Positions 232-19,338 of a stretch of DNA of 64,000 nucleotides are shown here, in pieces. The DNA comes from Leuconostoc gelidum subsp. gelidum KCTC 3527 (GTDB taxonomy: Bacteria; Bacillota; Bacilli; Lactobacillales; Lactobacillaceae): NCBI RefSeq assembly GCF_000166715.1, contig NZ_AEMI01000019.1, positions 1 through 64,000 of the forward strand. The letters run 5' to 3'. How positions within the stretch are numbered: position 1 is the first letter of the stretch; each line of letters opens with the position of its first letter. The notes beneath the pieces were generated by a model that saw only the letters and a list, made by a program, of their open reading frames with translations, was not told where the DNA came from and searched no databases. Both the position numbers and the translations under genes were made by a program.

Positions 232-1272
232 TTAATTAAGAGGAACATCGACGGCCCAAGTTTCGGGTCCTTTTTCATCGCCGTATTGAATAGCAGTTAG
301 ACGGTCGTACAATTTTTGTGTCCATGGACCAACCTCTGTCTCCGAATAAAATACATGTTTATTACCATGATGTGTGATTGAACCAACAGGAGAAATAACT
401 GCTGCAGTACCCATAGCTCCTGCCTCGGTGAATTGGTCCAAGTCATTTATTGAGATGGTCGTCTCCTCGGCTTCAAGCCCAAGCTCCTTTGCGACTTCAA
501 GAAGTGAGTACTTCGTTACTGAAGGTAAAATTGAGGGTGACTTTGGTGTTAAGAAGCGACCATCTTTGGTGATACCAAAGAAGTTTGCTGAACCTAATTC
601 TTCAATATTTTCATGTAAACGGGGATCTAAATAAACGACATCAGAGTATCCAGCAGCGTGTGCCTGATCCCCAGCAAGCATTGATGCCCCGTAGTTACCG
701 CCAGCCTTAGCTGCACCCGTACCACCATGAGCTGCACGGTCATATTCATTAGTAACATAGGCTGTTGGCGTTAAACCGCCTTTATAGTATGCACCGACTG
801 GTGTTGCATAAACTTCAAAAACATAATTATCTGCAGGATGAACACCAACAACTGGTCCACCACCAAATTCAAATGGTCGAAGATAAAGTGTTGCACCAGT
901 ACCATATGGTGGGATAAAATCTTTATTTGCCTTTGTTACTTCCTGTAGGGCACGCAAGAACAATTTTTCAGGTACTGGAGCCATCATTAATCTTGCAGCG
1001 GAATTTTGTAAGCGTTGTGCGTTCCGGTCAGGGCGAAAGAGGTTAGCACCGCCATCTTGACGTCTGTATACTTTCAGTCCTTCAAAAATATTTTGTCCAT
1101 AATGCAAGCCAGTGGCTGCTTCATTCACTGGTATATTTGAGTCAGTTTCTAGGCCACCTTCACTCCACTTGCCATCTTTAAAATATGCGCGGAATCGATA
1201 AGGCAGATCGTGATATTCAAATCCAAGTTCTGACCAATTAAAATCTTTGGGTTGCGCTTTCTTCTGTGACAT
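232..1272 (-). CDS. ilvE: Branched-chain amino acid aminotransferase
   Basis: Class IV PLP-dependent aminotransferase that interconverts Leu, Ile and Val with their 2-oxo acids using glutamate/2-oxoglutarate in the cytosol. The 346 residues match the usual length of the longer IlvE form. The motif GGTGAAKAGGNYGAS near residue 190 carries the PLP-binding lysine, and ELGSANFFGI and GTAAVISPVG are typical of the family. The gene follows the EIIC-like gene by 56 bp on the same strand with no clear terminator or promoter between them. It is therefore probably cotranscribed from the branched-chain amino-acid-controlled leader upstream of that gene. The ribosome binding site is only a purine-rich AAGAAGAAG stretch. 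Function is confident; operon membership is inferred. Confidence 0.95.
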   Translation of the reverse strand: MSQKKAQPKDFNWSELGFEYHDLPYRFRAYFKDGKWSEGGLETDSNIPVNEAATGLHYGQNIFEGLKVYRRQDGGANLFRPDRNAQRLQNSAARLMMAPVPEKLFLRALQEVTKANKDFIPPYGTGATLYLRPFEFGGGPVVGVHPADNYVFEVYATPVGAYYKGGLTPTAYVTNEYDRAAHGGTGAAKAGGNYGASMLAGDQAHAAGYSDVVYLDPRLHENIEELGSANFFGITKDGRFLTPKSPSILPSVTKYSLLEVAKELGLEAEETTISINDLDQFTEAGAMGTAAVISPVGSITHHGNKHVFYSETEVGPWTQKLYDRLTAIQYGDEKGPETWAVDVPLN

Positions 1273-1328: not shown

Positions 1329-2465
1329 TTAAACAACATCTAAATGTAAATCATTTGGTCGCGTTTTACCAACCTTTTTTAAGGTGTAATACATTGCCAT
1401 ACTACCGACAATTGGGACAACAATACCAAATATTGCGACAAGTAGCAGTGCCCGAGGATCTGAGGAAGCTAATGCTATTGGGGCAATAAAGCCATTTAAA
1501 CCAAGTCCAGCAATAGCAAATGGGACTTTTAAATTAAATACACCAACAGCGACCATGGCTGATATACCAGCTATGAAAGCTGGGCCAAACATAAGTAATG
1601 GACTTTTTAATAAATTAGGAAATTGCACTTTTGGTGTAACAATTGTTTGGGCAATATTTGCACCTACGTTATTTTGTGTCCAACCCATAGCTGTATAAAC
1701 AACGAATCCTGCGGTGGTGCCAATTAACGCTGCACCACCCGAAAGGGGATCTAACATGACAGCAATAGCAAGCGCTGCAGAAGAAGCTGGTGTCATTAAG
1801 AAGAGAAACCAAACGACTGAAACGATGAAAGAACCAAGAAAAGGATTGACATTCATTGTCGAAGCTAATGATTCAGATACCCAGTTTAAAAACGGCGTAG
1901 TTACTGCTGCTGTTCCTAAACCAAAGAATGTACCGGCAAGTGTAGCACTGAGCGGCACAAGCATCATGTCTAGCGGTGTCTTACCGGTTAACCAATTACC
2001 AATCAGTACAGCCAATAAGGCTGCTAAAACAGCAGAGATTGGTTGACCAGAAGTCAACACAATTGATCCAGCAGCCTGATCTGCTACCCACCCCGTTGCT
2101 GTGTGAGTTTGTGGCGCGACAGTTGAAGTAAAATAAACAGCGTTTGAACCAACTGTGGCGGCGATCAGAGCAGCACCAGTAGTTAAAATATTAGCACGCA
2201 TCATGATGGCAATGCCAACACCAAGTGCGGGGGCAAGTAGTTTTTGACCCATTAGGCCAGCTTGCACTAAAGGTGTGTATCCAATTATATTTCCGATTGA
2301 AGACATCAATAGTCCCATGCCAAGTACAGCGAGAATGGCATTTGAAATACCAGTTGAGACATCAAACACGACATCGCGAACGGATGAGGGTGGTTTTTTC
2401 TGGTTACCTGGTGATGGTGATATGTTATCATGTTTAGCTGGTGTGAGCGGGGTTGCTTGATTCAT
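1329..2465 (-). CDS. EIIC-family (PTS_EIIC_2-like) membrane transporter, probably amino-acid regulated
   Basis: Polytopic membrane protein of 378 residues with about nine or ten hydrophobic segments rich in Gly and Ala. It resembles the Pfam family usually named 'phosphotransferase system, EIIC' (PF13303), which has no phosphorylatable EIIA or EIIB domain attached. The ATG at 2465 was chosen because AGGAGG lies 7 bases before it; an upstream in-frame start at 2522 would put codons over the ribosome binding site. The N-terminus is a short hydrophilic Pro-rich tail. The gene lies behind a leader peptide ending Val-Val-Ile-Ile-Ile with an attenuator, and directly ahead of ilvE. That context argues for transport of a branched-chain amino acid or a related 2-oxo or hydroxy acid rather than a sugar. 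The substrate is inferred, not shown. Confidence 0.75.
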   Translation of the reverse strand: MNQATPLTPAKHDNISPSPGNQKKPPSSVRDVVFDVSTGISNAILAVLGMGLLMSSIGNIIGYTPLVQAGLMGQKLLAPALGVGIAIMMRANILTTGAALIAATVGSNAVYFTSTVAPQTHTATGWVADQAAGSIVLTSGQPISAVLAALLAVLIGNWLTGKTPLDMMLVPLSATLAGTFFGLGTAAVTTPFLNWVSESLASTMNVNPFLGSFIVSVVWFLFLMTPASSAALAIAVMLDPLSGGAALIGTTAGFVVYTAMGWTQNNVGANIAQTIVTPKVQFPNLLKSPLLMFGPAFIAGISAMVAVGVFNLKVPFAIAGLGLNGFIAPIALASSDPRALLLVAIFGIVVPIVGSMAMYYTLKKVGKTRPNDLHLDVV

Positions 2466-2550: not shown

Positions 2551-2587
2551 AATAAAAAGAGGCGCTAGTAATTTACTAGCGCCTCTT
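2551..2587 (-). terminator. Attenuator terminator of the EIIC-ilvE leader
   Basis: On the minus strand AAGAGGCGCTAG pairs perfectly with CTAGCGCCTCTT around a TAATTTA loop and is followed by a T-rich tail (TTTTTATTTTTTT). It lies between the leader peptide and the EIIC-like gene, so it must be bypassed for expression. Its 5' arm is also complementary to the upstream segment at 2616-2625 (TTAACTGGCG on the minus strand), which gives an alternative antiterminator pairing. Confidence 0.85.
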
Positions 2588-2630
2588 GAAAACATTGAGA
2601 AACTCAACATATTCACGCCAGTTAAGAAAA

Positions 2631-2672
2631 TGACTTCTCAACTGGTAGACAAAACAGACCAGCGAGGAGTCA
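2631..2672 (-). promoter_or_regulatory. Alternative attenuator stems downstream of the leader peptide
   Basis: Read on the minus strand, segment 1 (2659-2672, beginning at the leader-peptide stop codon) pairs with segment 2 (2631-2645) over about 14 bp. Segment 2 can instead pair with segment 3 (2616-2628) over 11 bp with one G-U. Segment 3 can in turn pair with the 5' arm of the terminator. The mutually exclusive arrangement is the hallmark of translation-coupled attenuation. Confidence 0.65.
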
Positions 2673-2735
2673 GATAATAATGACTACGTTGATCGTAATG
2701 AGATTTGTGAAATTGTATGAGTTTAGTGTGAACAT
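2670..2735 (-). CDS. Branched-chain amino acid leader peptide (21 aa)
   Basis: ATG at 2735 opens a 21-codon frame whose C-terminal half reads NLITINVVIII before TGA. That is one Leu, two Val and five Ile among the last eleven codons. AAGGA lies about 10 bases upstream of the ATG, and a consensus promoter lies about 35 bp upstream. The stop codon is the first base of the first attenuator stem. The frame is too short for normal gene calling. The codon run, position and downstream structures identify it as a regulatory leader peptide that senses charged tRNA-Ile/Val(/Leu), in the style of ilv/leu attenuators. The peptide itself is probably not functional. Confidence 0.8.
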   Translation of the reverse strand: MFTLNSYNFTNLITINVVIII

Positions 2736-2766
2736 CTCATTAGTTTCCTTTTATTTAATATTTAGT

Positions 2767-2795
2767 ATTATGTCATTAAATTAATTAAATGTCAA
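2767..2795 (-). promoter_or_regulatory. Promoter of the EIIC-ilvE operon
   Basis: Minus strand TTGACA (2790-2795), 17-bp spacer, CATAAT (2767-2772). Transcription would start near 2760, about 25 nt before the leader-peptide ATG. Confidence 0.85.
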
Positions 2796-19191: not shown

Positions 19192-19206
19192 ATGAGAAAC
19201 AATAAA

Positions 19207-19321
19207 AACCTTTAATTAAGTCCAGAGAGACTTACAAGGCTTTTAGATACTTGGGTCAAAGTCCATTCTTTGACCGTAATTTTCTAGAACCGCGTAAGTC
19301 AAAAGGCTTATGCGGTTTTTT
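19207..19321 (+). promoter_or_regulatory. PyrR-dependent attenuator of the pyr operon
   Basis: ACCTTTAATTAAGTCCAGAGAGACTTACAAGG-like anti-antiterminator region: AGTCCAGAGAGACT (19219-19232) is the PyrR RNA-binding loop seen in Firmicutes pyr leaders. A perfect hairpin GGTCAAAG/CTTTGACC follows (19254-19275), then the terminator AACCGCGTAAG/CTTATGCGGTT and T6 (19288-19321), 17 bases before the pyrB start. High UMP would make PyrR bind and favour termination. pyrR is not in this operon. Confidence 0.88.
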
Positions 19322-19338
19322 GTATAAAGAGGAGTATT

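Follow-up and report, generated by a model that had tools for sequence, protein, structure and literature searches.

The window, a 64,000-nucleotide stretch of Leuconostoc gelidum subsp. gelidum KCTC 3527 (contig NZ_AEMI01000019.1, positions 1 to 64,000), very probably contains a ribosome-mediated attenuator that senses the charging of isoleucine and valine tRNAs and controls an EIIC-fold protein, proposed to be a branched-chain amino acid permease, together with ilvE. We computed the parts of the sequence, their conservation and covariation, and their dependence on ribosome position in an equilibrium folding model. From these we infer that ribosomes would stall in the leader, that transcriptional read-through would change, that ilvE would be cotranscribed, and that the permease would carry branched-chain amino acids.

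Layout of the leader region

Read along the minus strand, positions 2795 to 2557 contain a promoter, then a ribosome binding site and a 21-codon peptide, and finally four RNA helices that exclude one another. The sigma-70-type promoter (2767 to 2795, minus strand) has TTGACA at 2795-2790 and CATAAT at 2772-2767, separated by a 17-nt spacer with a TG extension before the −10 box, and scored 11 of 12 matches in a consensus scan. Both TTGACATTT and CATAAT were unchanged across the 18 Leuconostoc leaders that we compared. The Shine-Dalgarno sequence of the leader peptide, AAGGA, lies at 2746 to 2750 on the same strand, and its GGA was likewise invariant (18/18). The open reading frame (ORF) itself runs from ATG to TGA (2670 to 2735, minus strand) and encodes MFTLNSYNFTNLITINVVIII-stop, in which Ile or Val accounts for seven of the final nine codons.

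All four helices lie on the minus strand downstream of this frame. Helix P1 (segments 1:2; 2631 to 2672) has a 5′ arm at 2672-2658 that starts with the TGA stop codon and a 3′ arm at 2646-2631. Helix P2 (segments 2:3; 2618 to 2645), the anti-antiterminator, shares the 3′ arm of P1 and pairs 2645-2634 with 2629-2618. The antiterminator hairpin (segments 3:4; 2575 to 2622) has one strand in common with P2, in the latter's 3′ part, and the other with the terminator, in its 5′ arm; it pairs 2622-2615 with 2582-2575, and the linker between segments 3 and 4 folds as its apical stem (2610-2603 with 2599-2592). The intrinsic terminator (segments 4:5; 2557 to 2587) is a 14-bp stem followed by a U run. 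The region thus combines a promoter placed well upstream of the gene, an intervening terminator, and antiterminator and terminator structures that are mutually exclusive and that covary. The initial annotation had recognized the promoter, the ribosome binding site, the 21-codon peptide, the stem at the stop codon, a second, exclusive stem, and the terminator, all of which were confirmed by our scans and folds and by conservation in 18/18 leaders. It had also described a short segment able to pair with the 5′ arm of the terminator; this pairing holds, but it is part of a complete antiterminator hairpin to which the paired linker also belongs.

The leader RNA folds at −70.2 kcal/mol, compared with a mean of −36.0 in 200 dinucleotide shuffles (z −8.9; none of the 200 was as good), and its minimum-energy fold contains both the terminator and P2. 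A search against Rfam gave no match to the leader at the gathering score, and cmscan of the window returned PyrR and tRNA alone. The PyrR binding site (RF00515, 63.5 bits) lies at 19205-19323 on the plus strand. Since the fold energy, the numbers of cells changed on both sides of a pair, and the counts in upstream regions described below all exceed those of shuffled sequences, we reject a chance origin of the leader.

Two further candidate elements were discarded. An upstream ATG at 2740 opens a 5-codon frame (MRCSH), and a comparable short out-of-frame ORF was found in only 3 of the 18 sequences (G000, G005, and G017). The coding stretch AACUUCAC can pair over a long range with GUGAAG just 3′ of segment 3, perfectly so in G003 and G016. 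Because this pairing is broken in G002, G006, and G014, we do not regard it as a conserved element; its computed mean probability was at most 0.14.

Conservation and covariation within Leuconostoc

We compared 18 complete leader regions from 19 genomes of the genus, excluding G004, in which the region is split over two contigs. Leader-region DNA was matched in 17 of the 19 genomes, and the leaders of G003 and G016 were recovered instead from upstream of the gene. Conserved Ile/Val codons and compensatory stem changes in relatives had been set as checks by the initial annotation, and both were found. The peptide, its reading frame, and the Ile/Val run were kept in 18/18 complete leaders. With few exceptions, the C terminus follows the pattern NFTxxIxINVVII(I/T/M)-stop, the exceptions being G007 (KFT), G014 (Val for the first Ile), G001 (IS), and G010 and G011 (NAV). 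An extra ATT in G003 and G016 preserves the frame (INIVVIII), and residues 2 to 7 vary freely. A short, Ile/Val-rich frame is therefore conserved, and the peptide is predicted from the sequence to be translated.

Each of the four helices folded within its own subregion in all 18 sequences, with P1 energies ranging from −10.9 to −23.8 kcal/mol. In alignment A1, 88.5% of cells were paired for P1 plus antiterminator and 94.0% for P2 plus terminator; when the partner was slid by 1 to 3 columns, pairing was 25 to 55% and 37 to 53%, respectively. Cells changed on both sides numbered 24 for P1 plus antiterminator (shuffled mean, 10.3) and 30 for P2 plus terminator (shuffled mean, 9.5), values reached by 0/500 shuffles in each case. 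Two other measures stayed within the shuffled range: pairs changed on both sides in P1 plus antiterminator showed no excess (136/500 shuffles reached the value), and neither did further pair types in P2 plus terminator (483/500). P1, P2, and the terminator all showed compensatory changes, as did the apical stem of the antiterminator. The antiterminator's lower stem (columns 182-189 with 229-236) is almost invariant, so its support comes from conservation, not covariation.

Ribosome position and the proposed switch

For each codon, we placed a ribosome footprint there and folded the RNA as far as the 5′ arm of the terminator. This equilibrium model is thermodynamic and ignores the kinetics of transcription; codon numbers refer to the 21-codon leader. 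The mean antiterminator probability over the 18 sequences was 0.66 with the ribosome at codon 13, 0.75 at codon 15, 0.66 at codons 17 and 18, and 0.58 at codon 19, and then fell to 0.40 at codon 20, 0.14 at codon 21, and 0.02 once the A site reached the stop codon. From these values, a ribosome stalled at codons 13 to 19 would leave segment 1 free, and one at the stop codon would mask it. The window's own sequence gave 0.93 when stalled versus 0.35 at the stop, a difference reached by 1/40 shuffles. Shuffling the stretch from the stop codon to the terminator gave mean stall/stop differences of −0.03 to 0.04.

The stall/stop difference exceeded 0.2 in 11, 12, 13, 13, 13, and 13 of the 18 sequences for front edges of 11 to 16 nt, respectively. 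Position dependence in this model was thus clear in 13/18 sequences, the window's included, and weak or absent in 5 (G001, G003, G016, G018, and G012; difference of at most 0.11 with a 13-nt edge). In G003, G016, G018, and G012, P1 is 4 to 8 kcal/mol weaker than P2; in G001 the arm remains paired (0.83) even with a ribosome at the stop. The initial annotation had supposed that a stall at early codons forms 1:2 and blocks the terminator and that a ribosome reaching the stop has the reverse effect. The folding model reproduces this logic, with little or no effect in those five sequences. In the model, I13, I15, V17, V18, and I19 are the likely control codons. Codons 20 and 21, both Ile, lie too near the stop to serve well in this role, since a stall at either would favor termination.

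The switch that we propose would work as follows. When Ile and Val are plentiful, the ribosome would reach the stop codon and cover segment 1; segment 2 would then pair with segment 3 (P2), leaving segment 4 free for the terminator to form. With Ile or Val in short supply, the ribosome would instead wait at codons 13 to 19, its front edge leaving segment 1 free. P1 would form and release segment 3, which would pair with the 5′ arm of the terminator as the antiterminator, and RNA polymerase would read through.

The ribosome-free mean antiterminator probability was 0.22, so the equilibrium model predicts mostly termination without a ribosome, whereas read-through would be expected if the RNA folded sequentially and P1 formed first. 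If folding follows transcription, expression should go up rather than be silenced when the start codon is removed, contrary to the textbook expectation.

The genes proposed to be controlled

The gene that follows the terminator (1329 to 2465, minus strand) encodes paralogue A of a PTS_EIIC_2 membrane protein (PF13303; Pfam E value of 1.2e-64, 218.9 bits against a gathering score of 28.9), for which we propose a role as a branched-chain amino acid permease. It is followed after 56 nt by ilvE (232 to 1272, minus strand), a branched-chain amino acid aminotransferase gene (NCBIfam NF009897, 1.8e-135; TIGR01123, 2.4e-118). An AlphaFold model of the EIIC protein (39 sequences; pLDDT 78, pTM 0.72) aligned in VIA-align with E. 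coli PtsG (IICB) at Z 17.6, MalT at 17.0, and ChbC at 14.3; the best non-PTS match had a Z of 6.7. A sequence search of solved structures found no relative (best E value, 0.58). In the model, then, paralogue A has an EIIC fold, and a shared fold does not establish a substrate. Pfam identified no EIIA or EIIB domain in the protein, and its two neighbors are ilvE and a D-2-hydroxyacid dehydrogenase gene; as judged from the protein and these two neighbors, the fused or adjacent EIIB/EIIA of a PTS sugar transporter is absent. No Glu occurs among the invariant columns of the 39 EIIC sequences. The dehydrogenase gene (PF02826; 2875-3816, plus strand) is divergent and starts about 80 bases from the leader promoter; its product might use as substrates the keto acids that IlvE produces.

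We did not find ilvC in the window's genome; it was found in 5 of the 19 genomes of the genus and not in the other 14. Nor did we find brnQ in the window's genome, which is rated 100% complete. Since neither gene was found there, the host should need branched-chain amino acid uptake. Across 80 named EIIC loci, ilvE was present at 21. It lay directly downstream of the EIIC gene at 9 of 12 Leuconostoc loci and at one Jeotgalibaca locus, directly upstream on the same strand at 10 loci (nine of them Liquorilactobacillus), and on the other strand at one.

Leaders of EIIC genes across the Lactobacillaceae

A protein search found the EIIC gene in 131 of 301 Lactobacillaceae genomes at an E value of ≤1e-40, counting loci among the matches listed; all 15 Leuconostoc genomes in this sample have two EIIC paralogues among those matches. 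We read 152 EIIC loci of relatives, 145 of which had at least 300 nt of upstream sequence. Our strict definition of a leader was a Shine-Dalgarno sequence and an ATG ORF of 14 to 30 codons with at least six Ile, Leu, or Val among its last 10 codons, followed 20 to 200 nt on by a terminator. Such leaders were found in 50 of the 145 upstream regions and in 1 of 7,250 shuffles of them. In the window itself, one lay ahead of 1 of 61 mechanically called ORFs of at least 120 amino acids, and that ORF was the EIIC gene. A looser definition (64 loci) includes chance-looking cases in genera g3, g20, and g38, and we therefore used the strict one for all counts.

By genus, strict leaders preceded 33/33 Leuconostoc genes (paralogue A, 18/18; paralogue B, 15/15), 7/7 in g18, 4/6 in g26, 4/10 in g2 (which includes Fructobacillus), 1/1 in g19, and 1/2 in g8; within the 145 upstream regions, all remaining genera had none. 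Among the latter are Lentilactobacillus (g14, 10 loci), Secundilactobacillus (g20, 12 loci), and Lactiplantibacillus (g38, 9 loci). At four loci in g29 and two in g7, leaders are visible by eye and fall outside the strict definition.

Paralogue B of Leuconostoc has a Leu leader with the consensus NNALLLNLLLI-stop. A generic folding model showed almost no ribosome dependence for these Leu-type leaders, so it does not support their switching; many leaders of other genera likewise showed almost no position dependence in it. The window's genome has its paralogue B at L054/L361 (G000:C7, minus strand), with the Leu-rich leader MIKTFYKQVNSALLRNLLLI-stop and a terminator, and in several other Leuconostoc genomes paralogue B adjoins brnQ1.

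Several other arrangements were seen. One genome of the Fructobacillus group (g2) has an additional, shortened EIIC copy that retains the leader MFQAACKKQVHRNVQISVVIII-stop (L268, 786-934). Genomes of Liquorilactobacillus (g30) and Ligilactobacillus (g22) have another hydrophobic leader type, containing YLVSLVIISTRDVLLNVSA and followed by a terminator, ahead of EIIC homologues (L103, L117, L121, and L127, with a related form in L121). In genus g6 (L067, L071, L114, and L144), EIIC homologues are preceded by terminators and by short ORFs whose Ile/Val/Leu runs lie toward the 5′ end (MLVIIIIGLLLDLVLII..., MIQSAIVLAIISLILVIIIV...).

Leaders at brnQ and ilv loci

A covariance model of the window-type leader gave 40 hits at an E value of ≤0.01 over the 301 genomes, some of which are not real leaders. 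Five hits beyond EIIC genes (L269, L270, L271, L273, and L277) are ILV-rich leaders adjoining brnQ genes in other genera, and two of the BrnQ proteins were confirmed as PF05525 (4e-120 and 4e-116). In one leader, MNSTNFTQVNNIIISAIIII, the NFTQ of some Leuconostoc leaders recurs. We discarded L272, L274, L275, L276, L278 to L281, L286, and L287 as terminators, coding sequence, or chance matches with no convincing ILV leader.

Leuconostoc also has a leader ahead of the brnQ1 operon (consensus TTTQIIISIIIIS-stop), present at 16/16 loci read, one of which has a brnQ remnant only; this count leaves out the remnant of G004. P1 begins at most 3 nt from the stop codon in 15 of the 16 and L352 folds otherwise. 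With the A site placed from −9 to −3, mean pairing of the terminator arm was 0.34 to 0.38; at the stop it was 0.16, as it was without a ribosome. Several individual leaders, L305, L307, and L360 among them, showed no rise. In two close relatives, G005 and G004, brnQ1 is a remnant (L303 and L304), and in G005 the leader persists ahead of the remnant operon (L360). In L351 (156-944, minus strand) and its relatives, the brnQ1 operon opens with an ORF of about 263 amino acids that has no Pfam match at 0.001.

Leaders of the same class (e.g., MNKIISATTKLILSVIVIIT-stop, with a hairpin at the stop and a terminator) also lie near the ilv operon (L283, 4843, plus strand; L284, 5251, reverse strand; L285, 5344, plus strand). 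At these three loci no ORF of at least 100 amino acids follows on the leader strand, except antisense within a convergent gene. This leader was matched as DNA in G012, G013, G014, and G018 and by the model in G001, which are all five of the ilvC-positive Leuconostoc genomes. It might be vestigial, or it might be a trans-acting RNA.

T-boxes beside leader peptides

The initial annotation had noted that T-boxes dominate the control of such genes in this group. T-boxes do occur: Rfam identified one at two of the three Leuconostoc brnQ2 loci that we scanned (L288, 95.3 bits; L290, 98.4 bits; L294 was under the cutoff), and the T-box core GGTGGTACCGCG is visible upstream of seven brnQ2 genes. Yet leader peptides recur on transport genes as well. 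Three Ligilactobacillus loci have a T-box on the EIIC strand (L191, 73.6 bits, E value of 2e-14; L210, 58.9 bits, 2e-10; L203, 45.3 bits, 5e-7), none of them reaching the gathering score of 93, and from the alignment we read the specifiers of L191 and L210 as CUC (Leu). The same three loci also have a T-box upstream of EIIC on the opposite strand, with the L191 specifier read as AUC (Ile). Rfam scans of L205 and L209 found no T-box. Regular-expression flags (e.g., in Liquorilactobacillus, where the ilvE coding sequence lies ahead of the gene) were not counted without an Rfam match. The window leader has neither an RF00230 match nor a T-box core.

Alternative explanations

The leader could be an attenuator of another kind, one in which the peptide is a nascent-chain arrest peptide or a general sensor of ribosome slowing, of the erm type, instead of a counter of Ile- and Val-tRNA charging. 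Codons 9 and 10 (TTC ACA, Phe-Thr) are invariant in 18/18 Leuconostoc leaders, as are the wobble bases of several control codons (ATC at 15, GTC at 18, ATT at 19 and 20) beyond what the amino acids need. However, only the Ile/Leu/Val run is kept across paralogues and genera (INVVIII, NNALLLNLLLI, TTTQIIISIIIIS, and IIVISPIVIII), and the adjoining or controlled genes of known family, ilvE and brnQ, concern branched-chain amino acids; we think this explanation improbable. It is harder still to see the short ORF as incidental to a ligand- or tRNA-binding riboswitch or a T-box variant, a reading that we consider extremely unlikely. The strong, conserved structure would suit it, as would the T-boxes at brnQ2 (2/3) and, below the gathering score, at the EIIC gene of the three Ligilactobacillus loci. 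Against it stand the missing Rfam match and T-box core in the window leader, a conserved reading frame whose one insertion preserves the frame, and the start of P1 at or within a few nucleotides of the stop codon in the leaders of several genes.

The sign of the response could also be reversed, with EIIC exporting branched-chain amino acids and being switched on by their excess as P1 re-forms after ribosome release and allows read-through. Two Ile codons stand directly before the stop, a stall there would mask segment 1 and favor termination in the model, and sequential folding after release would yield P1 and the antiterminator. BrnQ is a family of importers, and brnQ carries the same kind of leader, which speaks against export; so do the five of seven Ile/Val codons in the final run at which a stall would free segment 1 in the model, and the need for uptake expected of a host in which neither ilvC nor brnQ was found. 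We hold this reading to be quite improbable and favor an attenuator that responds to a shortage of charged Ile- or Val-tRNA.

Relation to known attenuators

In the classic trp, his, and ilv attenuators, the control codons overlap segment 1, and a stalled ribosome masks it. The Leuconostoc leader differs: segment 1 starts at the stop codon, and in the folding model stalls at codons 13 to 19 favor P1 and the antiterminator. His attenuators such as E. coli hisL have several alternating segments, the first of which is masked by the stalled ribosome. Several segments alternate in the Leuconostoc leader too, but here it would be the ribosome at the stop codon that does the masking; the extra hairpin would reverse what a stalled ribosome masks. 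A T-box does the same job, and does so upstream of the same gene in the three Ligilactobacillus loci, but it senses tRNA directly, without a leader peptide, and none was found in the window leader.

Rli60, the ilv-leu leader of Listeria monocytogenes, is an experimentally tested branched-chain leader attenuator (PMC5864092). Like the Leuconostoc leader, it combines a Gram-positive host, a branched-chain leader peptide, and a choice between terminator and antiterminator. Rli60 serves a biosynthetic operon, its terminator consists of segments 3 and 4, and start-codon and ribosome binding site mutants are reported to be superattenuated (PMC5864092); the Leuconostoc leader instead precedes a transport gene and ilvE and has one additional alternating hairpin. 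The S. aureus ilvD attenuator likewise joins a leader peptide rich in branched-chain amino acids to a terminator in a firmicute, but its 26-amino-acid peptide is Leu responsive, and the passages compared describe no P1/P2/antiterminator/terminator series of the Leuconostoc type (PMC5794164). The same paper cites predicted branched-chain leaders in Lactococcus lactis and Streptococcus (PMC5794164). C. glutamicum ilvBNC has a chain of overlapping hairpins ending in a terminator, with Val, Leu, and Ile control codons; it has three hairpins (AAT/AT/T) to the four of Leuconostoc, and it governs a biosynthetic operon in an actinobacterium (PMC11857589). The Listeria, S. aureus, and C. glutamicum attenuators all precede biosynthetic operons (PMC5864092, PMC5794164, and PMC11857589). 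His leaders are reported in some Firmicutes (PMC2965389 and PMC9413887). The main text of PMC2494555, on T-box-controlled transporters, contains no EIIC, Leuconostoc, or leader peptide. Among the matches listed in the open-licence literature, none reports leader peptides at these genes, whether in Leuconostoc or elsewhere in the Lactobacillaceae. As far as those matches go, the kind of regulation is known, and what is new is its target, its lineage, the amino-acid-specific set of leaders, and the order of the four helices.

Implications

In a group of food bacteria, leader-peptide attenuation recurs on transport genes; T-boxes occur alongside it, and at one and the same gene either may be used. 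Taken jointly, the loci permit a wider reading that to us stands evenly balanced: that Leuconostoc and its relatives run a small attenuator regulon in which the codon run states the purpose of the transporter, that PF13303 proteins are branched-chain permeases on a PTS sugar transporter fold, and that the leader near the ilv operon might act in trans. Under it, Ile/Val would mark EIIC-A with ilvE, Leu would mark EIIC-B, and Ile would mark the brnQ1 operon. An EIIC-like family without a known substrate thereby gains a testable function, and it offers a likely uptake route where neither ilvC nor brnQ was found.
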